Origin: Pseudomonadota bacterium
GTDB taxonomy: Bacteria; Pseudomonadota; Alphaproteobacteria; Rhizobiales; Beijerinckiaceae
Direction of reading: 5' to 3'
DNA: 64,000 nt
Assembly (NCBI GenBank): GCA_021813805.1
Contig: JAKAJL010000014.1
Location: forward strand, 1 to 64,000
Below the pieces are notes generated by a model, which saw only the letters and a list, made by a program, of their open reading frames with translations, was not told where the DNA came from and made no database searches. The translations under genes and the position numbers were made by a program. Positions 13,646 through 59,891 of this stretch are shown in pieces. How positions within the stretch are numbered: the stretch's first letter is position 1; each line of letters starts with the position of its first letter.

Positions 13646-14650
13646 TTATACCCCGCGCCGCCGGCGCCTCGAGGCGGCTTCGATCGGGGTCCGGTCAGAC
13701 CATCGGACCACGCGTCCATCCATGTCCGCAGCCCAGGCGGCGGCGCCGGGAAAGGCGGCAAGGATGGCGCGAATCTTCTCACGCGGCGCGACATAGAGCG
13801 CCGTGGAGAGCGCGTCGGCGACGACGGCTGACGGCGCGTGCGCGGTGAGCCACGCCCAATGACGGGCCGGCCGGCCCGTCCGCGGGTCGAACAGGTGATG
13901 GTCGCCATTATGGGCAAAGACCATTCCCGACGCCGCCGAGGTCGCCAGGGCGCCGCCCGCGAGCCGGATCGCATCGCGCTTGTTCGGCAGGTCGACTTTC
14001 CAAAAGCCCTGCTTCGGCGTCCCGATGGCGCGCATTTCTCCCAGATCGACGAACACGCGGTCGAAGCCGCGCCGTTTGAGGATTTCCACGCCGCGATCGG
14101 TCACATAGCCTTGCGCCACGCCGTTGAGGGTCACGCGCCGATGATCGCGCAAGTCGATCCTGTCGGCGTCGAACATTATTCCGTCGAATCCCACTTTCAG
14201 GCGCGCCGCGTCGAAATCCGGTCCGTATGGCGCCGCGCGGTCGAGGTTTCGCTTGTACCAGCCGATAAAAAAATCCCAGAGCGGCTGGACGGTCGGGTCG
14301 AACAGGCCGCCGCTTGCCTTGTGGACTCGGGCGCAGAGGTCGAGAACCGACAGGAAATCCAGGGAGGGCGAGACAAGCCGCCCCTCGGCGTTGAGGCGCG
14401 AAATCTCGGAATCGGCGCGCGAAAGACTGAAAATCCGCTCAAGCCGCTCGATCTCCGCCATGATTTCGGCGACCGCCGCTTCAGGCGCCGCCGCGCCCCG
14501 TCCGGCGAAAAGCAGCCGGACCTGCGCGCCCATCGCCGCGCCGCGCCATTCGCGCGTCGCCGTCGTCGCGCCTCCGCCGAAACAGGTCGCCCCCGCTCCG
14601 AGAGCGAAAAGAGTGAGCACGCGCCGCCGCGTCGGTTTGGCTTCAACCAT
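13646..14650 (-). CDS. nirX: ApbE-family FAD:protein FMN transferase, NirX/NosX type
   Basis: Tat signal TRRRVLTLFALG; RIFSLSRADSEISRLNAEG; overlaps the NirI/NosR-like gene, which is divergent from nirS. Confidence 0.8.
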   Translation of the reverse strand: MVEAKPTRRRVLTLFALGAGATCFGGGATTATREWRGAAMGAQVRLLFAGRGAAAPEAAVAEIMAEIERLERIFSLSRADSEISRLNAEGRLVSPSLDFLSVLDLCARVHKASGGLFDPTVQPLWDFFIGWYKRNLDRAAPYGPDFDAARLKVGFDGIMFDADRIDLRDHRRVTLNGVAQGYVTDRGVEILKRRGFDRVFVDLGEMRAIGTPKQGFWKVDLPNKRDAIRLAGGALATSAASGMVFAHNGDHHLFDPRTGRPARHWAWLTAHAPSAVVADALSTALYVAPREKIRAILAAFPGAAAWAADMDGRVVRWSDRTPIEAASRRRRRGV

Positions 14651-16694
14651 CGCCCGCCTCCTTTTGGCTCGCGGCCATCGCCTCCAGCGCCTGGCGCCGC
14701 GCCTCGCGTCCTGCGAGCCCCTTGCAGACCTTGGGGTCGTGGTACATCGATTGGCAGTTCAGGCAGTAGATGCATTCGTTCGGGCTGATGACCCCCAGCG
14801 GATTGATCGCCTGCACCGGGCATTTGACCGCGCATTGCCGGCATTCGCGCCCGCATTGCGGCCGCCGTTTCAGCCAGTCGAAAATATGCATCCGCGCCGG
14901 CAGGGCGAGGGCGCCGCCCAGCGGACAGAGATAACGGCAATAGGCCCGGCGCACGAACAGGCCGGCGGCGAGCGTGACGACGGCGTAAAGCACGAAGGGC
15001 CACGGACGCATGAAATGCAAAGCGATCACCGTCTTGAAGGGTTCGGCCTCGGCCGCGCGGAAAGCGTCGTCCATGCTGTTGAGCGAAATGGCGAGAATAG
15101 CAAGAAAAACCAGATACTTGATCATTCCAAGGCGTTCGTGGACGCCCCAGGGCGGCTCCCATTGCCTCACGCCCAGACGCCGCGCGGCCTCATTCAGAAG
15201 CTCCTGCAAGGCGCCGAAGGGGCAGAGCCAGCCGCAGAACACGCCACGTCCCCAGAACAGCATGGCAAGCGCGACGAAGCTCCACAGGATGAAAATCATC
15301 GGATCGAGGAGGAACAGCTCCCATTTGAATTCGCCGCGCACGGCGTGCACGAAAGTGACGACCTGCACCACCGACAATTGGGCCTTGGCGTAAAGGCCGA
15401 GAAAGATCAGCGTCAAACCGAGAAAGATGATGCGCGTCCACCGGTACAGGAGGAGATGTTGGACGAACCGGTCCTGAAACAGCAATATGCCGAACAGCGC
15501 CGCGAGCATGGCCACCAGCGCGACGATCTCGGCGGCGCGGGCTCGCCAGATTTGCATCCACAACTCGGATTCGCCGGGCGTCGGCGGGGCGACATAAGAG
15601 GCGGGAAGCCTCCCGTCGAGGAAGAAGGTCGCGCTTTGCTCCTGGCCGTCTGGCGTGTGGCGCGTCAGCATCAGGGCGATGCGGAAGGGCCGCGTGGGAT
15701 CGAAGCCCGAGGCGGCGGGCAGGATGAACAGCGCCTTTTCGCGCAGATCCGGCGCGTCGGGCGTCGCCAGTTCGTCGAGGTCGCGATGCATCGCCTTGGT
15801 CAGGCGAATCGTCCTGCCGCCCTGGGCGATCGCCACATGCTCGAAAACGCCCGAGCTTCGCCAGTTCCCGCCGAGAATCGACAGAAGTCCACGCGAGCCG
15901 ACGAACAGGATATTGTCCTCGGGCCCGATGTTTCCCGAAAGCGAATCGAAGATGCGCCGGCCAAACAGATTGCGTCCGATTCCGGCCGGCGTCGCAAGCG
16001 CCGCATAGGCTTCGATGAGCAACTGGCCAGGCTCCTCGGCGCGCGCGCCCACGGAGTCGGCGAATTCCTTTTCCAGGACGCGGCGCTCAAAAATCGCGCC
16101 CTGCTTTTCCAGCGCGCGCCAATCCGCGGGCTCGAACTTCTCGCGCAGGATTTTGCCGCCGCCGAGTTCGCCGACCGCGCGCGCCACCACCCGCGCGCCG
16201 CGCACGACGGCGTCGCGAAAGACGCTGCTCGACACCGTCGCTCCCGCCAGAATGGGAACGCGGCCCTTCGCCCCGGAAATGGCGATATGCGACAAATCCC
16301 TGATGTCGAGCCCACGCAGGCTCGCCACGAAATCGTCGAGCTGTTTCTTGGAAATGCCGATGATCAGGATCGGCTCGTCCTGCCGGATCAATCTGGCGGC
16401 GACGACTTTCAAATCGGCGTCGAGCGCAACGTAAATATCGACCGGCTGTCCCGAATAGCCGACCGAATGAATGAGCGTCCAGGTCGAAAAGGCCCAGCCC
16501 AACGGCGCGCCGTTGGCGCGCGCCTCGACAAAGGAGGCGCCGTCCTTCCGTCGCGCCTCGACGTCAACGGAAACGCCTTGGCGCGCAAAGGCCGACCGTG
16601 CGAACGCCTCCAGCTCCTGCGCCGCCGCGACGCGCGCGCATCCCAGCGCCATCACGCACAGGATCATGATCCTGAGGTAAATTCTCCGCGCCAT
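14643..16694 (-). CDS. nirI: NosR/NirI-type membrane flavo-iron-sulfur regulator or maturation protein
   Basis: FMN-binding motif GATVSS; polytopic; CGRECRQCAVKCP and CIYCLNC ferredoxin motifs; divergent from nirS. Start placed at MARRIYLRIM. Confidence 0.8.
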   Translation of the reverse strand: MARRIYLRIMILCVMALGCARVAAAQELEAFARSAFARQGVSVDVEARRKDGASFVEARANGAPLGWAFSTWTLIHSVGYSGQPVDIYVALDADLKVVAARLIRQDEPILIIGISKKQLDDFVASLRGLDIRDLSHIAISGAKGRVPILAGATVSSSVFRDAVVRGARVVARAVGELGGGKILREKFEPADWRALEKQGAIFERRVLEKEFADSVGARAEEPGQLLIEAYAALATPAGIGRNLFGRRIFDSLSGNIGPEDNILFVGSRGLLSILGGNWRSSGVFEHVAIAQGGRTIRLTKAMHRDLDELATPDAPDLREKALFILPAASGFDPTRPFRIALMLTRHTPDGQEQSATFFLDGRLPASYVAPPTPGESELWMQIWRARAAEIVALVAMLAALFGILLFQDRFVQHLLLYRWTRIIFLGLTLIFLGLYAKAQLSVVQVVTFVHAVRGEFKWELFLLDPMIFILWSFVALAMLFWGRGVFCGWLCPFGALQELLNEAARRLGVRQWEPPWGVHERLGMIKYLVFLAILAISLNSMDDAFRAAEAEPFKTVIALHFMRPWPFVLYAVVTLAAGLFVRRAYCRYLCPLGGALALPARMHIFDWLKRRPQCGRECRQCAVKCPVQAINPLGVISPNECIYCLNCQSMYHDPKVCKGLAGREARRQALEAMAASQKEAGDG

Positions 16695-16752: not shown

Positions 16753-16799
16753 CCTTGACTTCGGTTAGAAGTGGCAAAGCTCCCTAACCAAAGTCAAGG
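16753..16799. promoter_or_regulatory. Inverted pair of Dnr/FNR-like boxes in the nirI-nirS intergenic region
   Basis: ccttgacttcggttag ...15 nt... ctaaccaaagtcaagg; arms complementary over 16 bp with one G.T mismatch. Confidence 0.65.
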
Positions 16800-16809
16800 T
16801 AGGCCTTGA

Positions 16810-18615
<1,806 letters not shown>

Positions 18616-18623
18616 CCTTGACG

Positions 18624-18652
18624 GCGGCGGAGGGCGCCTCGCCCCCCGCCGC
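18624..18652 (+). other. Intercistronic stem-loop nirS-nirC
   Basis: gcggcgg...ccgccgc, GC-rich hairpin directly after the nirS stop, no U tract. Confidence 0.5.
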
Positions 18653-18675
18653 GACGCCGTTTCCGGGAGCAGCGA

Positions 18676-18987
18676 ATGGCCAAGGGCGCGGCCCTTCTGA
18701 CGATGATCGCCCTGCTCCCGCCGGCCTGTGCTGCGGCCCAACAGCCGCGAGACAAGCTCGTTTCGCTGGTGCGTCAGGACTGCGGTTCGTGCCATGGCCT
18801 CACGCTCAAGGGCGGACTGGGACCAGCGCTCCTGCCGCCGAATCTCGCCGGCAAGAGCGTCGAGGGGCTGGCCGCGATCATTCTCGACGGCGTCCCCGGC
18901 ACGCCCATGCCGCCGTGGCGCGGCGAATTGAGTCCCGAGGACGCGCGCTGGATCGCGCAAGAGCTGAAGGAGGGCTTTCCGCAGTGA
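18676..18987 (+). CDS. nirC: Monoheme c-type cytochrome NirC
   Basis: CGSCHGLTLKGGLGPALLP; position after nirS. Confidence 0.85.
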   Translation: MAKGAALLTMIALLPPACAAAQQPRDKLVSLVRQDCGSCHGLTLKGGLGPALLPPNLAGKSVEGLAAIILDGVPGTPMPPWRGELSPEDARWIAQELKEGFPQ

Positions 18988-20177
18988 AACGCAGGGCCTT
19001 TCTGGGGGCGGGCCTGGCGGCCGGCGCCCTGTTCGCCTCCAATGCGGGCGGGCGCGCGGAAGAGCCGGCGCCGCGGGCGACCGGCTGTCTCGGTCTGATC
19101 GTCGAGCGCGCCTCGGGCTCGGTCCTTCTCATCGACAATGTCCGGCGCGCTGCGCTCGGCCGCATCGAAGGTCTTGGCGACCTTTCGCACGCGACCGCCG
19201 TCTTCTCCCCCTGCGAGCGCTATGCCTATGTCTTCGGCCGCGACGGCGGCCTGACTAAGCTGGACCTGCTCGAAAGCCGCATCGAAAAGCGCGTCTTGCA
19301 GTCGGGCAATTCCATCGGCGGCGCCATTTCCGACGACGGCCGGCTGATCGCGGTCGCCAATTACACGCCCGGCGGCGTCAACATTTTTGACGCCGACGCC
19401 CTGGCGCAAGCCGCTTCCATCCCCGCGCTCGGCGCCGACGGCAAAGCCTCGAAAACCGTCGGCATCGTGCCGCTGCCGGGCCGGCGCTTCATTTTCTCGC
19501 TCTATGACGCGGGCGAAATCTGGATCGCCGATTTCGGCGACGGCGCGACCCCGAAGCTGACCAAATTCGCAAATGCGGGCCGTCTGCCTTACGACGGCAA
19601 CGTCACCTCCGACGCACGGCATTACCTCGCCGGCCTGTTCGGCGAGGACGGCTTCGCTCACATCGATTTGTGGGCGCCGGAACTCAAATGCGAGCGCGTG
19701 GCCCAGAATTATTTCGGCGGCCAGCAGCGCTTGCCGGTCTATAAAATGCCGCATCTGGAAGGCTGGGGCCAATCGGCCGGCGAACTTCTGCTGCCGGCCT
19801 GCGGCGCCCATGAGGTCCTGGCCATCGACCTCCAGACCATGGCTTTGAAAAAGCGCATCCCGACCCATGGCCAGCCGGTCTTTTGCGTCGCGCGGCCGGA
19901 CGGGCGCGAGGTCTGGGTCAATTTCGCCCATCCGCTCAACGACATCGTGCAGATCATCGACGTCCCGACGCTGGACGTCGTCCATTCCTTCGCGCCCGGT
20001 CCCGGCGTGATGCATCTAGAATTCACGCCGCGCGGCAATGAAATCTGGATTTCCGCGCGCGACGCCGACCGCGTCGTGGTGATGGACGTGCGGCGGCGGG
20101 AAAAGATCGCGGAAATTCCGGCGCAGAAACCGTCCGGCATTCTCTTCGCGTCCCGCGCGCACCGGCTGGGGGGCTGA
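18984..20177 (+). CDS. nirF: Heme d1 biosynthesis protein NirF
   Basis: GTG start overlapping nirC; d1-propeller-like protein lacking CXXCH; signal peptide KRRAFLGAGLAAG. Confidence 0.92.
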   Translation: MKRRAFLGAGLAAGALFASNAGGRAEEPAPRATGCLGLIVERASGSVLLIDNVRRAALGRIEGLGDLSHATAVFSPCERYAYVFGRDGGLTKLDLLESRIEKRVLQSGNSIGGAISDDGRLIAVANYTPGGVNIFDADALAQAASIPALGADGKASKTVGIVPLPGRRFIFSLYDAGEIWIADFGDGATPKLTKFANAGRLPYDGNVTSDARHYLAGLFGEDGFAHIDLWAPELKCERVAQNYFGGQQRLPVYKMPHLEGWGQSAGELLLPACGAHEVLAIDLQTMALKKRIPTHGQPVFCVARPDGREVWVNFAHPLNDIVQIIDVPTLDVVHSFAPGPGVMHLEFTPRGNEIWISARDADRVVVMDVRRREKIAEIPAQKPSGILFASRAHRLGG

Positions 20178-20178
20178 C

Positions 20179-21150
20179 ATGCTGTCGGAAGGGGATCGCC
20201 GCCTGATTGACGGATTCCAGCGCGATTTCCCGCTGGAGCCCGAACCGTTCCGCTCCGTCGCCGACAAGCTCGGACTCGAGGAATCCGCCGTGCTGGCGAG
20301 CCTGATCGGCTTACGCGAAGCCGGGGTCGTTTCGCGCCTCGGCGCAGTGCTGCGCCCCAACTGCGCCGGCGCTTCGACGCTTGCGGCCATGGCCGCGCCG
20401 GCCCACAAGCTGGAGGCGATCGCCGAAGCCATCAACGCCGAGCCGGGCGTCAATCACAATTACGAGCGCGAACATGCGCTCAATCTCTGGTTCGTCATCA
20501 CCGGCGCCAGTCGCGCCGCGATCGCCGCCAGCCTCGCGCGCATCCATGCCCGCGTCGGTCTTGAGGTGCTGGATTTTCCGCTGCTGCGCGCTTTTCACAT
20601 CGATTTGGGGTTTCCGATCTTCACGATCGGCGAGGGCGCGAAAAAAGTCGCGCGCGTCGCCAGTCCGCCGCCGCCCGACGCTGACGATATCCGGCTACTG
20701 ACAGCGATCGAAGACGGACTGCCGTTGTGCCCGCGCCCTTACCAGCAGGTCGCGACCCGTCTGGGCTGGGACGAGCAGGACGTCATCGCCCGCCTGCGGC
20801 GCCTGATCGCCGACGGCGCTGTCGCGCGCTTCGGTCTGGTAGTGCGCCATCACGTTCTGGGCTATCGCGCCAACGCCATGGTCGTCTGGGACGTCGACGA
20901 CGGCGTCGTGCCGGACGTCGGCGCCCGTCTCGCTGCGGCGCCGGGCGTGACGCTCTGCTATGAGCGGCCGCGGCGCCCGCCGATCTGGCGCTACAATCTC
21001 TATTCCATGGTCCATGGACGTGACCACGAACAGGTCCGCTCCGACATAGCCGCGCTCGCGGAAAACGTCGGCGCGGCGAGCCGCGGCCATGAAATCCTGT
21101 TCTCGCGCCGCTGCTTCCGTCAGCGCGGGGCGAAGCTTTCCGCCGCCTGA
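20179..21150 (+). CDS. nirDL: Fused siroheme decarboxylase NirDL (two Lrp/AsnC-like domains)
   Basis: 323 aa, two tandem HTH+AsnC repeats (LIDGFQRDFPLEPEPF and LLTAIEDGLPLCPRPYQQVA). Confidence 0.88.
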   Translation: MLSEGDRRLIDGFQRDFPLEPEPFRSVADKLGLEESAVLASLIGLREAGVVSRLGAVLRPNCAGASTLAAMAAPAHKLEAIAEAINAEPGVNHNYEREHALNLWFVITGASRAAIAASLARIHARVGLEVLDFPLLRAFHIDLGFPIFTIGEGAKKVARVASPPPPDADDIRLLTAIEDGLPLCPRPYQQVATRLGWDEQDVIARLRRLIADGAVARFGLVVRHHVLGYRANAMVVWDVDDGVVPDVGARLAAAPGVTLCYERPRRPPIWRYNLYSMVHGRDHEQVRSDIAALAENVGAASRGHEILFSRRCFRQRGAKLSAA

Positions 21151-21158
21151 GACTCTGC

Positions 21159-21605
21159 ATGTTCGACGACATCGACCGAAGGATCATCAATCATTGGCAG
21201 GGCGGCTTTCCCCTGGTCGCGCGGCCTTTCGCCGCTGTCGCCTCCGACGCCGGGATTTCCGAGGACGAGGCGATTCTCCGCATCCGCCGCTTGCGCGAAG
21301 AGGGCGTGCTGACCCGCTTCGGTCCGCTTTTCAACGCCGATGCGCTGGGCGGCGCCTTCTGCCTCTGCGCCATGGCCGTGCCGGCGCAGCAATGGGAGGC
21401 GACGCTCGCAGTCGTCAATGCGCGCGTCGAAGTCGCGCATAATTACGAGCGCGATCATCGCCTCAACATGTGGTTCGTGCTGGCGACCGAAAGGCCCGGA
21501 ACAATCGAAAAGGTCTGCGCCGAGATCGAGCAGGCGACCGGCCTGCGCGTCTTCGCCTTTCCCAAACTGCGCGAATTTTTCGTCGATTTCCGGGTGAGCG
21601 CATGA
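21159..21605 (+). CDS. nirG: Siroheme decarboxylase subunit NirG
   Basis: IINHWQGGFPLVARPFAAVASDAG; VAHNYERDHRLNMWFVLA. Confidence 0.85.
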   Translation: MFDDIDRRIINHWQGGFPLVARPFAAVASDAGISEDEAILRIRRLREEGVLTRFGPLFNADALGGAFCLCAMAVPAQQWEATLAVVNARVEVAHNYERDHRLNMWFVLATERPGTIEKVCAEIEQATGLRVFAFPKLREFFVDFRVSA

Positions 21606-22084
21606 AGACGATCGACGAGATCGACCGAGCCTTGATCTGCGCGACGCAGGCTGGATTGCCGTTCGATCGGCAGCCATATGCGCGGGTCGGCGAAGGCGTC
21701 GGGTTGAGCGAGACGGAGGTGATCGAGCGTTTCTCGCGCATGATCGACAAAGGAATCGTCCGCCGCATCGGCCTCGTGCCCAATCATTTCCGCCTTGGTC
21801 TCAACGCCAATGGCATGACCGTCTGGGATGTCGCCGACGAGCAGGCGGAGCGCCTCGGCGCCTGGGTCGGCGCGCTCGATTTCGTCAGTCATTGTTATCT
21901 GCGACCGCGCGCTCTGCCTGATTGGCCCTACAATCTCTTCGCCATGGCCCATGGCGCGACGCACGACGAGGTCCGGGACAAAGCGCGCCGCATCGCCGAT
22001 CTGCTCGGACCCGCCTGCCGCGGCTCGGACATTCTGTTCTCGACACGCATCCTCAAGAAAACCGGCCTGCGCCTCGCGGAGTGA
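21602..22084 (+). CDS. nirH: Siroheme decarboxylase subunit NirH
   Basis: MKTIDEIDRALICATQAGLPFDRQPY; WPYNLFAMAHG; 4-bp overlap with nirG. Confidence 0.85.
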   Translation: MKTIDEIDRALICATQAGLPFDRQPYARVGEGVGLSETEVIERFSRMIDKGIVRRIGLVPNHFRLGLNANGMTVWDVADEQAERLGAWVGALDFVSHCYLRPRALPDWPYNLFAMAHGATHDEVRDKARRIADLLGPACRGSDILFSTRILKKTGLRLAE

Positions 22085-22087
22085 TCC

Positions 22088-23290
22088 ATGTTTCGCCTCA
22101 CCCAAATGCTGCGCGAACTGAAAGACCCGACGCCCGTCCGGCCGCGCCGCGATCCGCCCGGTCCGGTGGTGATCTGGAACCTGATCCGGCGCTGCAACCT
22201 CAAATGCAAACATTGCTATTCGGTCTCGGCCGATGTCGATTTTCCCGGCGAACTGACGACGCAGGAAATCTTTGCGGTGATGGACGACCTGAAAGATTTT
22301 GGCGTCCCGGCGCTGATTCTTTCGGGCGGCGAGCCCTTGCTGCGGCCCGATATTTTCGACATTTCCCGCCGCGCCAAGCAAAAAGGCTTTTACACCGCGC
22401 TGTCGAGCAACGGGGCCTTGATCGACGCGGACAAGGCCGATCGCATCGTCGATATCGGCTATGATTATGTCGGGATCAGTCTCGACGGCATCGGCGCGAC
22501 CAACGACCGCTTTCGCGGCCTCGCCGGAGCCTACGACGCGGCGCTTTCGGGCGTGCGCGCCTGCGTCGCGCGCGCCGCGAAAGTCGGCTTGCGCTTCACC
22601 ATGACTCTCGACAACTGGCGCGAATTGCCGCGCCTGATCGAACTCGCCAAAGCCGAGGGCGTGAAGAAATTCTATCTCTCGCATCTGGTCTATGCCGGGC
22701 GCGGCAACAAGAATCGCGGCGACGACGCCAATTGGCGGGTGACCCGCGACATGATGGATTTTGTGATCGACGCCGCCTGGGCGGCGTTGGAGCACGGCGA
22801 GGAACTGGATTTCGTCACCGGCAACAACGATGCCGACGGTGTCTGGCTCTATTTCTGGATTCGGCGCCATTTCCCGGAACGAGCCGAACATATGCGCGCA
22901 AAGCTGGCGCAATGGGGCGGCAATTCGTCCGGCGTCAATGTCGCCAATATCGACAATCTCGGCGAGGTCCACCCCGACACGATGTGGCAGGATTATCCGG
23001 TCGGCAATGTCCGCGCCCGGCCATTCTCGCAGATCTGGTCCGATGTCTCCGACCCGATCATGGCCGGTTTGAAGCGCCGCCCGCGAAAAATTTCGGGGCG
23101 CTGCGGCGCTTGCGCCTTTTTCGACATTTGCGGCGGCAATACGCGCGTGCGGGCGCTGAAGCTGAGCGGCGACGCTTTCGCCGAGGACCCGGCCTGCTAT
23201 CTCACCGACGCCGAAATCGGCGCGCCCGAAGCCGAGCGCCTGGCTCCGCGGCCCTTCCGGGGAATGAAACATGAAGCTTTGCGCCGCTAG
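22088..23290 (+). CDS. nirJ: Heme d1 biosynthesis radical SAM protein NirJ
   Basis: WNLIRRCNLKCKHCYS radical SAM CxxxCxxC; C-terminal CGACAFFDICGG. Confidence 0.93.
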   Translation: MFRLTQMLRELKDPTPVRPRRDPPGPVVIWNLIRRCNLKCKHCYSVSADVDFPGELTTQEIFAVMDDLKDFGVPALILSGGEPLLRPDIFDISRRAKQKGFYTALSSNGALIDADKADRIVDIGYDYVGISLDGIGATNDRFRGLAGAYDAALSGVRACVARAAKVGLRFTMTLDNWRELPRLIELAKAEGVKKFYLSHLVYAGRGNKNRGDDANWRVTRDMMDFVIDAAWAALEHGEELDFVTGNNDADGVWLYFWIRRHFPERAEHMRAKLAQWGGNSSGVNVANIDNLGEVHPDTMWQDYPVGNVRARPFSQIWSDVSDPIMAGLKRRPRKISGRCGACAFFDICGGNTRVRALKLSGDAFAEDPACYLTDAEIGAPEAERLAPRPFRGMKHEALRR

Positions 23291-24821
23291 CCTCGCTCTG
23301 GCGCTGGGCGCCGCCGCCGCCCACGCCGCGCCGGACGCCGCGGCGCTCTATCAGGTCCATTGCGCCTCCTGTCACGGGAGCGACCGTTTCGGCGCCGTCG
23401 GCCCAGCGCTGCTGCCCGAAAATCTCGGACGGCTGGGCAAGGCTGGCGCGCAAGCCGTCATCCGCGATGGCCGCGCCGGCACGAAAATGCAGGGTTTCAA
23501 GGCGGCGCTCGACGACGAGTCGATCAAGGCGCTGGCGGCTTATGTCACCTCCCCGCCGGCGACGGCGCCGCTGTGGGGCAGGGCGCAGATTGAGGCCTCG
23601 CGCGTGCTGACGCCCGAGCCTCCGGCCGCGAAGCCCGTCTATTCGGCCGATCCCCTCAATCTCTTCGTCGTGGTCGAGGGTGGCGACCATCATGTCTCCA
23701 TCGTCGATGGCGACCGTTTCACGCCGATCGACCGTTTCGCCAGCCGTTTCGCCTTGCACGGCGGGCCGAAATTCACGCCGGACGGTCGTTATGTCTTTTT
23801 CTCGTCGCGCGACGGATGGGTGACGAAATTCGATCTCTGGACGCTGAAAGTCACCGCGGAGATCCGCGCCGGGCTCAACAGCCGCAACATCGCGCTGTCC
23901 AAGGATGGCCGCCATGTCGCGGTCGCCAATTACCTGCCGGACACGCTGGTGATTTTGTCCACGGCCGATTTGAGCGTGGAAAAAATCTTCGACGTCGCCG
24001 ACCGCAACGGCAAGGCCTCGCGCGTCTCGGCGGTCTATCAGGCGCCGCCGCGAAACTCCTTCATCGCCGCCTTGAAAGACGCGCCCGAGATCTGGGAGAT
24101 TTCCTGCGATCCCAATGCGCCGCCGGTCTATCCCGGATTTGTCCATAGCTACGAATCGGGGATGAAGGAGGCATTGGGGTCGACGGGTGGCTTGTTCGCG
24201 CTGCGCCGGATCGAAATCTCCAGTCCACTGGACGACTTCTTCTTCGATCCCTCTTATCGTTATGTGCTCGGCGCCCATCGCGACGGCGACAAGGCAGTCG
24301 TGGTTCACCTCGATATCGGGGCGGAAATCGCGACGATCCCGCTGCCGGGCATGCCGCATCTGGGCTCCGGCATTTCCTGGATGCGCGACGGCCGTGTGGT
24401 GATGGCGACGCCGCATCTGAAAGACGGCAAGATCAGCGTCATCGACACGACGGACTGGAGGCTCATCGCCGAAATTCCCACGCCTGGACCGGGCTATTTC
24501 CTGCGCAGCCATGACAATACGCCCTATGCCTGGGCCGATTCGTCGCTGTCGCCGCAACACCGGGACGAGATTTCCATCATCGACAAGCAGAGCCTCAAAG
24601 TCGTGCGCACGCTCAAGCCCGCGCCCGGAAAAATGACGGCCCATGTCGAATTCGATCGCTCCGGCAAACATGCGCTGGTCAGCGTGATGGAAAAGGATGG
24701 CGCGGTGATTGTCTATGACGCGGCAACCTTGCAGGAGATCAAGCGCCTGCCGATGTCGAAGCCGATCGGCAAATATAACGTCTATAACAAGATCACGTTT
24801 TCGCAGGGCACCAGCCACTGA
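23271..24821 (+). CDS. nirN: Cytochrome c/d1 protein NirN
   Basis: CASCHGSDRFGAVGPALLPENL plus d1 propeller; end of nir cluster. Confidence 0.9.
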   Translation: MKLCAASLALALGAAAAHAAPDAAALYQVHCASCHGSDRFGAVGPALLPENLGRLGKAGAQAVIRDGRAGTKMQGFKAALDDESIKALAAYVTSPPATAPLWGRAQIEASRVLTPEPPAAKPVYSADPLNLFVVVEGGDHHVSIVDGDRFTPIDRFASRFALHGGPKFTPDGRYVFFSSRDGWVTKFDLWTLKVTAEIRAGLNSRNIALSKDGRHVAVANYLPDTLVILSTADLSVEKIFDVADRNGKASRVSAVYQAPPRNSFIAALKDAPEIWEISCDPNAPPVYPGFVHSYESGMKEALGSTGGLFALRRIEISSPLDDFFFDPSYRYVLGAHRDGDKAVVVHLDIGAEIATIPLPGMPHLGSGISWMRDGRVVMATPHLKDGKISVIDTTDWRLIAEIPTPGPGYFLRSHDNTPYAWADSSLSPQHRDEISIIDKQSLKVVRTLKPAPGKMTAHVEFDRSGKHALVSVMEKDGAVIVYDAATLQEIKRLPMSKPIGKYNVYNKITFSQGTSH

Positions 24822-24830
24822 GCCGGCGGG

Positions 24831-25526
24831 TCAATCGTCGCGCGTCGCGCGCGCGGCGAACTCCGTCAGTCGGGCGATGTCCTTCATGCGGACATTGTCG
24901 CGAGCGACGGTGACGCCGAGTTCGCGCAGGCGCGCCAGCGCCCGCGAAAAACTTTCCGGCTGCATGCCCAGACGATTGGCGATCAGGGCCTTGTCATAGG
25001 GCAGGGCGATTTCAGCCGGGCCGGACTCGGCCGAAACCTGGCCGAGAAGAAAATCGGCGATCCGTTGCGGCGCCGATTGCGCCTTCAACTGCTCGATCTG
25101 TTCGACGAGCTGCTTGAGGTGAACGAAGGCCGCGGCCAGCATGTCCAGCGCGAGTTGGGGCTGCTTGAGAATGGCCTGGCGGAGGCCGGCGCCCTCGACC
25201 CGCAGGATGCGCGCCGGGGTGACCACTTCGGCCGAGGCCGGATAGCGCCCGCCGAGGAACATCGCGGCTTCGGCGAAGGTCTCTCCGGCGGTGAAGGTGG
25301 AAACGACGATCTCCCGGCCGTCCTCGCGTTCGCGGAACAGCTTCACCCAGCCTTCGCGGATGAAGAAGAAGGCGTCGGCCGGATCGCCCTGCTGGAAGAT
25401 GCGCTCGCCGCGTTCGTAATGGCGCGGGACGCGGCTCCCGATCAGGGATGCGGTGATCTCGCTTCCCATTGCCTGAAACAAGGGCGCGCGGCTCAGGATG
25501 GTCCAGTCGTCGGTCGTCATTGTCAT
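24831..25526 (-). CDS. Crp/Fnr family regulator (Dnr/NnrR-like), no cysteines
   Basis: cNMP-fold FQQGDPADAFFFIREGWVKLF; HTH IANRLGMQPESFSRALARLRELGV. Confidence 0.88.
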   Translation of the reverse strand: MTMTTDDWTILSRAPLFQAMGSEITASLIGSRVPRHYERGERIFQQGDPADAFFFIREGWVKLFREREDGREIVVSTFTAGETFAEAAMFLGGRYPASAEVVTPARILRVEGAGLRQAILKQPQLALDMLAAAFVHLKQLVEQIEQLKAQSAPQRIADFLLGQVSAESGPAEIALPYDKALIANRLGMQPESFSRALARLRELGVTVARDNVRMKDIARLTEFAARATRDD

Positions 25527-30550: not shown

Positions 30551-30564
30551 TTAACAAAAGTCAA
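30551..30564 (-). promoter_or_regulatory. Dnr/FNR-like box upstream of norC
   Basis: ttaacaaaagtcaa (RC TTGACTTTTGTTAA), ~60 bp before norC ATG. Confidence 0.65.
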
Positions 30565-32313: not shown

Positions 32314-32327
32314 TTGACTTTTGTCAA
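32314..32327 (+). promoter_or_regulatory. Dnr/FNR-type box 1 upstream of narK
   Basis: TTGACTTTTGTCAA. Confidence 0.75.
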
Positions 32328-49688: not shown

Positions 49689-50516
49689 TCATAGGAGATC
49701 GCTCGACTTGAACCGCCAGAACCCAGCCGCTGCGGCGATCAGGCCGATCAACGCCGGGTAAAGGCAGGCCCAGACGAGATAGGCGTTCGCGCCGACCCGG
49801 TCGAGAATGGTGAAGGCGGCGGGCCCCAGAAGCACCAGTTGCGGATCGAACAAAGCCATCGCCGCGGTGCGGAAGACCTGCAGCGGATTGATCAGGCTGA
49901 TCCCGATGATGACGTCCGGCGACATCCGCTCCTGCAGCATGAGGCCGAGCAGAAGCAGGTCGAGGAAGAGCACGAGAACGAGCCAGAGCATGAAGGCCGC
50001 GCTTTGCGCGACATCGGCGGAGCGCGCCAGCGTCGAGATCAGGAATCCCAGGCCGAGGAAACAGATCGACAGCGAGAGCAGCAGCGCCGAATAGATGAAA
50101 AAATGCTTCCAGGGGATGGGAAGCCCGCTCAGGGCGCCCCATGCGACCGCGCCGGCCATGGCGAGAAAGACGGGCGCGAAAATGGTGACGAAACGGCCGG
50201 CGAAGCGCCCCCAATACCAGGAGCCGACGGAGACCGGCAGCGACAGCATATATTCGAAGACGCCCGCCTCGCGGTCGCTGGCGACCGAGCGCACCGTCGA
50301 GATCAGGATGAAGATCGGCAGGATCGCCATGCTCAACTGGATATAGGTCATCAGCAGACGCGTCAGGCCGGTGAAGCCCATGACCTGGCTCTCGGTGAGC
50401 CCGAAGATCATCAGCAGCGCGACCAGCCCGCCAAAAACCACCGAATAGAGCAGGAACCAACGCGCCCGCAGGGATTCCGCCACGTCAAGCCGCGCGGTGA
50501 GCAGGAGATTGGTCAT
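49689..50516 (-). CDS. nosY: ABC transporter permease NosY
   Basis: Six-TM ABC-2 type; VRSVASDREAGVFEYMLSLPVSVGSWYWGRF; overlaps nosL by 4 bp. Confidence 0.88.
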   Translation of the reverse strand: MTNLLLTARLDVAESLRARWFLLYSVVFGGLVALLMIFGLTESQVMGFTGLTRLLMTYIQLSMAILPIFILISTVRSVASDREAGVFEYMLSLPVSVGSWYWGRFAGRFVTIFAPVFLAMAGAVAWGALSGLPIPWKHFFIYSALLLSLSICFLGLGFLISTLARSADVAQSAAFMLWLVLVLFLDLLLLGLMLQERMSPDVIIGISLINPLQVFRTAAMALFDPQLVLLGPAAFTILDRVGANAYLVWACLYPALIGLIAAAAGFWRFKSSDLL

Positions 50517-50974
50517 TTCGCTTGCTCCTTCCGCCCGCAATCGTGCTGTTTCAACGCCTGTTGGCGCATCGCCATGAAATCCACGGCGTCTTCCCGCGGC
50601 GCGGCGACGGCCGCGAAATTATAGTTCATCGGGCTCCGGCCGTGTCGATAGAAGGCGTTACGGGCTTCGAGCCAGGTCTTCCCGTCGTCGCTGTCCATCA
50701 CCCAGATTTCCTTCGCGCCCTGAAGTCCCACGCCTTGCAGCTCCAGCCAGTTCACGGCGTCGCCGATGTCGTCGAACTTGTGCATCTTATTATCGGAGGC
50801 GCTTCGAACCTCCGCCGCATAGCGGGCCTCCGAGATGATCATCCCGCACATTTCGCAGGCGTCCCGGCCATATTTGATCTCGACCGGCCCTTTGTCCTTT
50901 TCACAGGCCGCCAGCGCAAGCAGGAGAAAAGCCGCCGGGGCGATGCGCCTAAACGTCGAGAGATGCGGCCGCAT
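50513..50974 (-). CDS. nosL: Copper chaperone lipoprotein NosL
   Basis: Lipobox LLALAACEK; CEMCGMIISEARYAAEV. Confidence 0.92.
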   Translation of the reverse strand: MRPHLSTFRRIAPAAFLLLALAACEKDKGPVEIKYGRDACEMCGMIISEARYAAEVRSASDNKMHKFDDIGDAVNWLELQGVGLQGAKEIWVMDSDDGKTWLEARNAFYRHGRSPMNYNFAAVAAPREDAVDFMAMRQQALKQHDCGRKEQAK

Positions 50975-53674: not shown

Positions 53675-54925
53675 CTATCCTCCCGCCGCCTCGCTTCCGT
53701 CGCTGAAGGAATGCGTCGCCGGCTTGCTGTCGCGCAGGACGAGAACGGGCTTGGAGAATGGCGCAAGCCGCGAAAGGAATTCGATGGCTTCGAGCGCGGG
53801 CGAGCCGCGATAGAAACTGGCCATCGGCTTTTCCGCCCAGAGCTTGTCGGCATAGGAATAGATTTCGAACGGCGTCTCGCCGACGCCGGTATGCTTGCGG
53901 TCGAAGCCCTGGTAGTCGTCCCAATAATTGCCGTCCCATTGGCTCGCGGTCGCGCCGCCGCCGTTCTGGACCATGACATTGGTGAAATTGCCGACGAAAT
54001 TGTTGCCGGTGTAAATGTTGCTTTCCTGATCGCGATGATATTGCACCGCGATGCCGTTGAAGGCGAAACGATTGCCGCGAAGGATGTTGGGCCGGTCAGG
54101 ATCGGACGGGGAATTGTCGTTGTAAAGGCCGATGGCGCAGTCGATGACGAGATTGTTCTCCAGGATCACGTTGTCCGCCTCCTTGAGGCCGATTCCCTTG
54201 CCGACGGCGCCGTTGCTGCGCGCGATGCGGTTGCCGATCAGTTTCAGGTCGCTGGAGAACATGGAGAAAATGCCGACGGTGTTCTCGACATAGGCGTTGG
54301 CCTCGGCGGTGTTGCCGTTGGCGTACATGAAATGCGTGCCGTAGCGGCCGTTCTCGATCCGGTTGCCCTTGAAGAGATTGCGGGTCGAATATTCGAAGAT
54401 CACGTCGCGATGGGCGATCACCTCGTTGCCTTCGATCCGGTTGTCGTTCGACCACCAGACGCGGATTCCGTCGCCGCGCATGTCTTCAGTCCCCGCTCCG
54501 CCGATGATGCGGTTGGCGCGCAGGATATTGTTGTTCGAGCGCTGCACGTCCAGGCCGATCAGGCAGTCCCGCAGAATGTTGTCCTTGACGATGCTGAAGC
54601 TCGCGTTCTGCAACCGAAGGCAGGCGTCGCCATTCTCGTGGCGCTGGCCGCTGTGCTCGATCGTCACGCCGGCGATCGTGATCTGGGAGCCGCTCAAGGT
54701 CAGCACGGTTCCCACGTCATTGCCGGTCAGGATCACGGCGCCGGCGCCATCGAGCGTCAGCGGCTTTGTGATCGCAACGGGTCCGGAATAGCGACCGGGC
54801 GGCGGACGCAGCACGCCGCCGGACGGCGCGGCGTCCACTAGCGGCTGGAGCGGCGCCGCCTCGTCGCACCGCGCCGCGGCGGCGGCGGCGAGCAGGGCGA
54901 AGGCCGCCAGGGCGAGGGGTTTCAT
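53675..54925 (-). CDS. nosD: Periplasmic parallel beta-helix copper maturation protein NosD
   Basis: CASH repeats (GDGIRVWWSNDNRIEGNEVIAHRDVIFEYSTRNLFKGNRIENGRYGTHFMYANGN). Confidence 0.93.
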   Translation of the reverse strand: MKPLALAAFALLAAAAAARCDEAAPLQPLVDAAPSGGVLRPPPGRYSGPVAITKPLTLDGAGAVILTGNDVGTVLTLSGSQITIAGVTIEHSGQRHENGDACLRLQNASFSIVKDNILRDCLIGLDVQRSNNNILRANRIIGGAGTEDMRGDGIRVWWSNDNRIEGNEVIAHRDVIFEYSTRNLFKGNRIENGRYGTHFMYANGNTAEANAYVENTVGIFSMFSSDLKLIGNRIARSNGAVGKGIGLKEADNVILENNLVIDCAIGLYNDNSPSDPDRPNILRGNRFAFNGIAVQYHRDQESNIYTGNNFVGNFTNVMVQNGGGATASQWDGNYWDDYQGFDRKHTGVGETPFEIYSYADKLWAEKPMASFYRGSPALEAIEFLSRLAPFSKPVLVLRDSKPATHSFSDGSEAAGG

Positions 54926-55587
54926 TTTTCGCCCCGCCCGCCTTGCAATTGCTTGCGCCGCAACAGAACCGCGAGGATGAGGGCGAACGACGCGGCGACC
55001 AGCAGGCCGAAACCATAGGTCGGGTAGGAGAAGGTGGAGAACTGCGCCACCTTGCCCTCGCCGAACACCGTCGGCATGAAAGGCTTGACGGTGAAGGCGC
55101 CCCAGGGGTTCAGCGTATGGCCGAAATACCAGAGCCAGCCCGAATAATCGATGACGAAGCCGACGGGCACGAGAATCGCCGGCAGCGCCAGCAGCCACCA
55201 GAACGGACCGGAATAGAACATGAAGGCGACCAGCAGCAGGCCCATCGCGACAAACAGATAGGGCGCGAGCATGATTTCGTATTTCGCGCCCTCGGCGATC
55301 GGCTTCATGCCGATATAATGGTTGATCGTGTTCATCTCGTGGACGCAGTCCAGCGCCTCGTCATTGTCCACGTCGATTTCGGTTCTCGGTCGGGTGTGGC
55401 AGCCGTTCATGACGCCGTTGAAGTGAAATTCGATGCGGATGCCGTCGGGAAAGGCGTCCGGCGGATATTGCGGCGCCGTGAGCGCGACCCACCATATCGG
55501 CGAGAAATAAGCGACGGCGAGCAAGGCCATGGCGGCGAGGGTCAGCAGGCGGAACGGCGCGGCGCCTGATTTTCCGGACGTAGTCAT
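54922..55587 (-). CDS. nosB: NosB-like membrane protein of clade II nos clusters
   Basis: Polytopic; INHYIGMKPI...; between nosZ/cytochromes and nosD; 4-bp overlap with nosD. Confidence 0.75.
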   Translation of the reverse strand: MTTSGKSGAAPFRLLTLAAMALLAVAYFSPIWWVALTAPQYPPDAFPDGIRIEFHFNGVMNGCHTRPRTEIDVDNDEALDCVHEMNTINHYIGMKPIAEGAKYEIMLAPYLFVAMGLLLVAFMFYSGPFWWLLALPAILVPVGFVIDYSGWLWYFGHTLNPWGAFTVKPFMPTVFGEGKVAQFSTFSYPTYGFGLLVAASFALILAVLLRRKQLQGGRGEK

Positions 55588-55830
55588 TGATCGCTCCGCA
55601 TGAAAAGAATTCTGGATCGCCTCGTGTCCCGATCCCTCGTCAATCTGGCGCCATTGCTGAATTGCGGTCATGCGATGACGCAAACAGCAATGCTGATGAC
55701 GTTTCTTCCTCGGGTTCGGGGAGGAGGCCCGGAAGCGCGGCGTTCACGAAGCGCCGCCCGCGCGCGGCAGCTGCGCCGCGCCCGTGTCGGTTCAGATCGT
55801 CGACAAGTCTTGCGGCCGAGGCCGCAAGCC

Positions 55831-57465: not shown

Positions 57466-59763
57466 TTATTTCACCTTTTTCGCGCCGTTCTGTTCAAGGT
57501 AGGTCTTGGCGCGCAGGCCGATGTCGGCGGCTTTCACCTGATATTGCCACCATTGGTTCGCCCAGAGCATCGCGTTCTGCCAATCGCCCTTCTTGGAGAA
57601 GTCGTCGGCCTTGGCGCGCGCGTCCTTGGCGAAATTGAGCTGATCGGTCGCGTCTGACACCAGGGCCACCACCGTCGGGAAATCCTTGTAATTGACGGAG
57701 GTGATGTAAGCGACGACGCTGTCGATCACGGCCTGGGTGTCGAGGTTTTCCTTGTACTGCTTGTCGAAGTCGGCCTTGGTATAGGTCTGGCCGGTGCTGA
57801 ACGCGGCGGGCTGAGCCACCGCGCCGCCCTTGGGCGCGACCATCAGATAGCCTTCCATCTCCAGATGCAGCGCCGAGCAGAACTCGGTGCAGTAATAGGG
57901 ATAGACGCCGGCCTTGACGTTCTGGATCGTCGCCGAGGCGGTCTTGCCCGGCTCCAGCGACAATTGAACGTCGTGCTGGGCGACGGCGAAGCCGTGGGTC
58001 TCGTCCTCCGCGCGCTCGGCGTTGGTCCAGTGATAGATCACCGTATCGCCTTCCTGCGCCTGGACGATTTCCGGATTGTAGTGCGAGCGGATGACCGTGC
58101 CGAAGACTTCGACCTTGCCCGGCGATCGGTCGATATGCTCCGAACCCGGACGCACGGCAAAGGGCGAGGCCTCCTCGGTGCGGCTGTTGGTGCCGTATTT
58201 GTAGCGAACCAGCGGCTTCAGCTTGTCGAGAGAGATCGCGACCGCGTAATGCGGCTCGCCAAGCGGAAGCGGCATGTCGTAGAGCAGTTTCATCTTGTCG
58301 CCGCTGATGTCGATCAGCTCCTCGTTCTGCGGATGCAGCGGGCCGACGGGGTCGAAACGGTCGATGGCGAGCTTGTTGAGCGCGACGAGATATTTGCCCT
58401 TTGGATGCTCGGTGTCGCCTTCCATCGTCATCAGATGGCCGATGTTGTAAAAGACGGGAATCTTGTCGAGAACCTTACCCTCGCAATAGTTCCACTTCAC
58501 CACCTGGCTATCGACATAGAGCGAGGTGTAAACGATGCAGGGTTTGCTGTCGAACTGGTTGTGCAGCGGGCCGAGGCCGAGCGCGACCTGCACATGCAGG
58601 GATTTTTTCATGTCGAGGATCGGAATGCCGTAAGGATCCTTGCCGGCGAAATCCTTGGCCTCGATGAGTTTCTGCATCTTGTCGAAATCATAGACCGAGT
58701 CATGCGTGTCGAGCTTGCCGCTGACGACGACATATTTGCCGTCTGGAGAGACATCGACGCCATGCGGGCTCTTCGGTTCGGGCACGAGATAGAGCAGACC
58801 CTCGTCGATCGCGGTCTTGAGCCGGATCACCGCCATGCCGTTGATCTTTTCGACCTTGCCCGCCTTGAAGACCGCTTCGGCCTTCTTCCAGTTGATCACG
58901 TGCAGGAGGTCGGTGTCATGCGCTGAACAACCCGCTTCGAAGGGCGGACGGCCGGATTCAATGCCACCCACGTAACGCTCGGTGCAGAGCGAGTTGGTGA
59001 AGCTCCAGTCGTTCGACGGTCCCTTGCCGGTCGAGGTCAGATCCTGGCTGTAGGGCGGAAGCTCGATGGTGAAGGAATTTTCCGGCTCGATCATGCCTTT
59101 TTGGCGGTTGAACTTCCAGTAAGTGATGCCGCCGCGATAATCGTTGAACTTGTCGAGACCCTGGTATTTGCGGTCGAGCGTTCCGGGATATTGCGACGCC
59201 TCGACGACATATTCCGTGTTGTTGGTGACGAAGGCGCCGCCGTGGTCGGTCGTCAGGATCGGATTGACGACGATCTGCCGCGTTTCGAAGTCCTTGAGGC
59301 CGATGACCGCGATGCGGGGCGTCGACTTGTCGTTGATGAACAGATATTGCCCATCGTAGTCGCCGTTCGTTTTGGAAAGATTCGGGTGGTGGGTGTCGCC
59401 CCATGTGATCGGCTTGCCCTCGGGCGTCTTCGACGAGGCGAGGATCGCCTTCGATTCGTCGTCATAGCCGAAGCCCTGCCAGGGCTCGCGATTGAACACC
59501 GCGATATATTTGATGATGCGCATCGACGGGATGCCGAAGACGATGACGCCGCCATATTGGCCGCCGGAGGCGAATGAGAGGAATTCGTCGCGCCCGCCGG
59601 TCGGCGTGTAGGTCTTGGCGGCGGCGAGCACATTCTCCTCTGTCAGATTGCGCCGCTTCATCACATCCTGAAGCGATTCATCCGCGAAGGCGGAGCCGAC
59701 AAAAGCGGCGGTCATTCCCAGCGCGCTCGCCAGCATGGTGGTCTTCATCAGTCTGGATTTCAT
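57466..59763 (-). CDS. nosZ: Nitrous oxide reductase, clade II (Sec-type)
   Basis: WGDTHHPNLSKTNGDYDGQYLFINDK; CuA motif YYCTEFCSALHLEMEGYLMV; Sec signal MKSRLMKTTMLASALGMTAAFVGSAFA without RR. Confidence 0.96.
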   Translation of the reverse strand: MKSRLMKTTMLASALGMTAAFVGSAFADESLQDVMKRRNLTEENVLAAAKTYTPTGGRDEFLSFASGGQYGGVIVFGIPSMRIIKYIAVFNREPWQGFGYDDESKAILASSKTPEGKPITWGDTHHPNLSKTNGDYDGQYLFINDKSTPRIAVIGLKDFETRQIVVNPILTTDHGGAFVTNNTEYVVEASQYPGTLDRKYQGLDKFNDYRGGITYWKFNRQKGMIEPENSFTIELPPYSQDLTSTGKGPSNDWSFTNSLCTERYVGGIESGRPPFEAGCSAHDTDLLHVINWKKAEAVFKAGKVEKINGMAVIRLKTAIDEGLLYLVPEPKSPHGVDVSPDGKYVVVSGKLDTHDSVYDFDKMQKLIEAKDFAGKDPYGIPILDMKKSLHVQVALGLGPLHNQFDSKPCIVYTSLYVDSQVVKWNYCEGKVLDKIPVFYNIGHLMTMEGDTEHPKGKYLVALNKLAIDRFDPVGPLHPQNEELIDISGDKMKLLYDMPLPLGEPHYAVAISLDKLKPLVRYKYGTNSRTEEASPFAVRPGSEHIDRSPGKVEVFGTVIRSHYNPEIVQAQEGDTVIYHWTNAERAEDETHGFAVAQHDVQLSLEPGKTASATIQNVKAGVYPYYCTEFCSALHLEMEGYLMVAPKGGAVAQPAAFSTGQTYTKADFDKQYKENLDTQAVIDSVVAYITSVNYKDFPTVVALVSDATDQLNFAKDARAKADDFSKKGDWQNAMLWANQWWQYQVKAADIGLRAKTYLEQNGAKKVK

Positions 59764-59877
59764 CTTTGCCCCCTTCGGCAAAAGCTCCCGCTCGGGCGGC
59801 CGAACCCGCGCGCCGCCCCTCCGCGCCTGCGAAGTTCTGTCAACGAGGGGAACATAGACGCCCATGGCTCAACCGCA

Positions 59878-59891
59878 TTGACTTTTGTCAA
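59878..59891 (-). promoter_or_regulatory. Dnr/FNR-type box upstream of nosZ
   Basis: TTGACTTTTGTCAA, identical to narK box 1. Confidence 0.75.

Follow-up and report, generated by a model that had tools for sequence, protein, structure and literature searches.

In Paracoccus denitrificans the genes nirI and nirX, which encode a NosR-like and a NosX-like protein, adjoin nirS and are divergent from it, with a control region of the NNR type. In NosR, FMN is bound to a threonine, a step carried out by ApbE. N2O reductase (N2OR) is retained in a nirI mutant of P. denitrificans, and nir transcription there requires nirI (PMC3541799). The literature on the exchange of NirX and NosX is in conflict: an older insertion-mutant study (Saunders 2000, as cited in PMC3541799 and PMC7660919) is given as showing that the two are interchangeable and is followed in PMC3541799, while PMC7660919 opposes it on the basis of a clean, full nosX deletion in which NirX was no substitute for NosX. 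In a wider count, 172 genomes had NapH-like flavinylated (ApbE) clusters together with an ethanol oxidase, and 133 had them together with NirS (PMC8238504).

The window, i.e. the whole 64,000-nucleotide stretch of DNA that was analysed, originates from a member of the Beijerinckiaceae (Rhizobiales). An earlier note, made from the letters alone, had reported NosR/NosX-like reading frames at 13646-14650 and 14643-16694 beside a divergent nirS, and had likened them to NirI/NirX of Paracoccus. We confirm the coordinates and the families, and both the protein tree (see below) and the divergent nirS layout support the assignment. We consider it highly probable (roughly 0.88) that the pair represents NirI/NirX, that is, NosR/NosX-like helpers of the cytochrome cd1 nitrite reductase which support NirS rather than the clade II NosZ. 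The basis for this is gene identity, intact cofactor residues, the clade, the common boxes and the finding that the pair co-occurs with nirS but not with nosZ. The features of the nir region are as follows ("C8-type" refers to a second NosR-like protein, encoded on contig C8 of the same genome and discussed at the end).

13646-14650, reverse strand: nirX, ApbE/NosX-type FAD:protein FMN transferase (PF02424, E=7.8e-50)
14643-16694, reverse strand: nirI, membrane flavo-iron-sulfur protein of the NosR/NirI family, 683 aa (NF046105, 605 bits; Fer4_5; nirS-adjacent clade of the tree)
14724-14855, reverse strand: C-terminal eight-Cys region C614-C657 with two predicted [4Fe-4S] clusters (8/8 Cys invariant in NirI, NosR and C8-type)
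14922-14939, reverse strand: second CxxxCP motif, C586-P591 (invariant in all rows)
15219-15236, reverse strand: first CxxxCP motif, C487-P492 (invariant across NirI, NosR and C8-type rows)
16236-16238, reverse strand: codon of Thr153 in ILAGATVSS, predicted FMN acceptor (A152/T153 invariant in a six-sequence alignment)
16755-16768, reverse strand: putative NNR/FNR-type box CTAACCGAAGTCAA facing nirI, centre ~67 bp upstream of the nirI ATG
16784-16797, forward strand: putative NNR/FNR-type box CTAACCAAAGTCAA, directed towards nirS and centred ~64 bp before ATG 16855
16855-18615, forward strand: nirS, cytochrome cd1 nitrite reductase (PF02239, E=6.3e-138; frame open from 16825)
18612-24821, forward strand: remaining nir cluster, i.e. 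cytochrome c/nirF, nirD-type regulators, nirJ and a nirN-like gene (same order in relatives with nirI)

The nirI gene starts at the ATG at 16694, with the frame open as far as 16736, and overlaps nirX by 8 bp; nirS, which it adjoins in divergent orientation, probably starts at ATG 16855, preceded by an RBS-like GGGAGG. The NF046105 match of NirI extends over 618 aligned residues and, at 605 bits, does not reach the equivalog cut-off of 1000 bits, below which nosZ-linked alphaproteobacterial NosR proteins likewise score; the family covers NosR and NirI alike. The expectation that automatic annotation would call the pair nosR/nosX was right in part, the RefSeq names being 'NosR/NirI family protein' and 'FAD:protein FMN transferase'. 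The layout of the window recurs in the closest plasmid matches to NirI, those of Thioclava (47.6%) and P. aminovorans (45%); identity of the window protein to these Rhodobacterales relatives is about 45-48%. The contig scan gave one relative (L018, 83%), and a search of solved structures with the window protein gave no match at E<=0.001. Genes of the CRP/FNR type are present in the window at 24831 and 31525. A search for a particulate methane/ammonia monooxygenase, made for a hint at the organism, came out negative and was uninformative.

Every redox residue of NosR is kept in the window NirI, i.e. the Ala-Thr flavin site, both CxxxCP motifs and the eight C-terminal Cys. Clade I NosR/NosX share their domain order and FMN acceptor with the window pair, as well as the two CxxxCP motifs, the eight Cys and a partner ApbE, but fall in another tree clade and have other gene neighbours. 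The FMN-acceptor position is T in 20 and S in five of the 25 NirI-side rows, and T in all 48 NosR rows. Pfam FMN_bind (PF04205) gave no match in the window NirI and did match the C8 paralogue; in the window protein the flavin domain is instead marked by weak RnfG similarity and the invariant AT pair. Only one alignment column, at 85%, separates NirI from NosR, which is too few for use. The NapG/NapH-like NosG and NosH of clade II loci have a NapH-like membrane Fe-S part in common with NirI, but they are without a flavin domain, much shorter, and located inside the nosZ operon.

On the basis of the intact sites, the Tat-like RR signal of NirX (TRRRVLTL, a motif spotted by eye), its grouping in the ApbE tree and the literature, we infer a pair that supports NirS, with NirX as the flavinylating enzyme of NirI. 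NirX, probably exported by the Tat route, would attach FMN to the periplasmic domain of NirI at Thr153, and a transmembrane electron path may link this flavin to the CxxxCP and C-terminal Fe-S centres. The nirI and nirS genes would be switched on together from one divergent promoter with two facing NNR-type boxes, and NirI would support the expression, the activation or the electron supply of NirS. Flavinylation, the electron path and a need of NirI for NirS activity are here predicted by analogy with relatives. As a variant of this explanation, NirI might mainly be a redox sensor that controls nirS transcription and no electron carrier, which we regard as possible but tentative; it would agree with the requirement for nirI in nir transcription in P. 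denitrificans (as stated in PMC3541799, citing Saunders 1999, and in PMC8139620), but the window NirI keeps every flavin and Fe-S residue of NosR, which transfers electrons. NirI may act through electron delivery, transcription signalling or both.

The two facing boxes between nirI and nirS look, from their position, like sites for an NNR/FNR-type activator. The classical symmetric FNR consensus TTGAYN4RTCAA is absent between the two genes in the window, and the asymmetric YTAACN4GTCAA is present. Six 14-bp boxes with at most one mismatch were detected in the window vs 0.07 expected from shuffling; others are situated at 30551 before norC, at 32314 before the nar genes and at 59878-59891 upstream of nosZ, which suggests that these genes may form one denitrification regulon. 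A symmetric facing pair of boxes between nirI and nirS is also present in G002, G003 and G010 (L058, L060 and L059, respectively), and many of the nirI-nirS intergenic regions of more distant genomes have TTGACN4GTCAA or TTAACN4GTCAA boxes.

The distribution of nirI was studied in a class sample of 289 genomes (288 once the genome of the window is excluded), with nirS in 20, nosZ in 23 and nirI beside nirS in 16; in G145 nirI is located at the far end of the nir cluster, not adjoining nirS, and was counted among the nirI carriers. With the genome of the window excluded, nirI is present in 15 of the 19 nirS carriers vs 0 of the 269 genomes without nirS (Fisher p about 1e-21, genomes counted as independent), and among nirS carriers it is as frequent with nosZ (6/7) as without (9/12; p=1). 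Nine of the 15 nirI genomes are without nosZ, as is the close relative G046, where nirI adjoins nirS; two of the nine are near-complete assemblies, G189 (99%, in one contig) and G291 (100%, in 8 contigs). Conversely, nirI is missing from four of the 20 nirS genomes of the class and from several relatives, and hence it is not essential in every cd1 system. G002 and G003 combine nirI with a separate clade I NosR; in at least four relatives that carry nirS and a nosZ scoring as clade II (G035, G047, G049 and G057), both NirI and NosR are absent. This pattern indicates that nirI follows nirS and that clade II nosZ can do without nirI. Whether the pair serves NirS, NosZ or both had been left open in the earlier note; co-occurrence, the boxes, PMC3541799 and PMC7660919 narrow this and lean strongly to NirS. 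The case is a clean comparative one: the NirI/NirX pair accompanies nirS, not nosZ, so a NosR-like/ApbE pair should not be counted as evidence of clade I N2O reduction; in strains having nirI and nirS without nosZ (G189, G291 and G046), the function of NirI could be examined with no N2O reductase present. In one genome an intact nirI lies alongside a nirS homologue with one in-frame TAG stop (L130, G180:C2:71329-72507).

The nos locus of the window, outside the pair, served as comparison:

57466-59865, reverse strand: nosZ, clade II, Sec-dependent (TIGR04246, 825.8 bits, cut-off 625)
54922-55683: probable NosB (named by eye and position, without family match)
50513-50974: probable NosL (named by eye and position, without family match)

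This nosZ, the only one in the genome and located ~40 kb from nirI, fails the model for TAT-dependent nosZ (369 of 625 bits). It is followed by genes for NosG/NosH-like proteins, NosD, NosF, a NosY-like permease and the probable NosB and NosL; there is no NosR among the genes following nosZ, and the NosH of the window gives a weak NF046105 match. The earlier claim of a clade II nosZ locus without a NosR/NosX pair thus holds. P. denitrificans, in contrast, has a clade I nos locus with NosR/NosX, whereas the genome studied here has clade II nosZ only and no NosR. That the pair is an ordinary member of the known NirI/NirX system in this uncommon setting is well supported. G010 (L053, L077, L094, L096) and G026 (L075, L080, L095) each have a clade I-type nosZ with nos genes and a second nosZ that scores as clade II-like.

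The setting itself could be taken to mean that the pair serves the clade II NosZ as well as NirS, NirI being the quinol route to NosZ where canonical NosR is absent. The genome has nosZ and no NosR, and the box of the same type at 59878-59891 means that joint expression may be possible; however, the clade II nos genes here bring their own NosG/H and cytochromes, the four or more relatives with nirS and clade II nosZ manage with neither NirI nor NosR, and the branch of the window NirI (0.13) is hardly longer than that of the NirI of G010 (0.11), which also has a clade I NosR, and hence gives no sign of an altered role. We find such a dual role very unlikely. The more specific proposal that, in a lineage with clade II nosZ only, NirX-matured NirI also feeds electrons to NosZ would be at least as improbable; to our knowledge, electron supply from NirI to clade II NosZ has not been described before.

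The NirI/NirX assignment was followed in a tree of 117 NosR/NirI proteins from the class and phylum samples, close relatives and plasmids, labelled by neighbour gene; the root is arbitrary, SH-aLRT is the sole support measure, and the Paracoccus anchor is P. aminovorans (L010), without NirI of P. denitrificans PD1222. The 25 nir-linked rows (24 encoded next to nirS, one in a nir cluster), the window protein among them, all fall on the NirI side (support 100), split from the 48 nosZ1-linked NosR rows; the main NosR side has support 95, and seven nosZ-adjacent NosR proteins, one of them from Pseudomonas mandelii, lie outside both sides. The earlier note had asked for such a tree, with clustering among canonical clade I NosR as the contrary outcome; the window protein is placed with the nirS-linked proteins (SH-aLRT 100), grouping with those of G010, G002, G003 and G026, each encoded beside nirS. 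The NirI side also includes another 17 rows, whose neighbours are varied and comprise no nirS or nosZ; these rows come from a small number of alphaproteobacterial families, several copies per family. Clade membership by itself is therefore no proof of a nir role. In the ApbE tree the window NirX groups with ApbE genes adjoining nirI in relatives (99/96) and apart from NosX of the same genus; this separation of nirX and nosX holds within the genus and was not found class-wide (6 label changes), so the ApbE tree is taken as supporting evidence.

A canonical NosR/NosX identity of the pair was tried and rejected, the sole nosZ being of the Sec-dependent clade II and ~40 kb off and the protein lying outside the nosZ-linked clade. 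That a clade I NosR/NosX pair moved beside nirS after loss of a clade I nosZ is scarcely credible, since, even with the window protein about equally near to plasmid NosR and NirI (~41-45% identity) and with NF046105 spanning both, its tree position is among nirS-linked proteins and the sister genomes G002, G003 and G010 hold NirI plus a separate NosR. Divergent paralogues of the NosR/NirI family, up to four per family in a few alphaproteobacterial families, were also seen away from nirS and nosZ (L131, L133-L136, L138-L145, L152, L153), one of which (L140) adjoins a PQQ dehydrogenase.

Finally, another contig of the genome, outside the window and so beyond the view of the earlier note, carries a second NosR-like/ApbE pair (G000:C8:125253-128401), beside no nos or nir gene and with no matching box found around the pair. 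It is divergent from genes for a FIST-domain protein (PF08495/PF10442) and a hybrid histidine kinase (region G000:C8:122538-128401; L002, L003), which we take to resemble NosP-type NO-sensing systems. The C8 NosR-like protein has the family fold, the cofactor residues and its own ApbE in common with the window NirI, but is only ~31% identical to it and falls in a third tree clade (support 100). Sister genomes that lack both nirS and nosZ (G001, G004, G005, G008 and G009) also have the C8-type protein, which is therefore no denitrification NosR; in G007, a fragmented assembly, it is the only NosR-like protein. The C8 cluster is conserved across the genus, and a similar cluster is present in G233 (L137). 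Some C8-type relatives are near genes for PQQ-type alcohol dehydrogenases, which fits the ethanol-oxidase clusters of PMC8238504; NosR-like genes at L071 (G001:C62) and L171 (G606:C1) have such neighbours and match the ethanol-oxidase class of that study.
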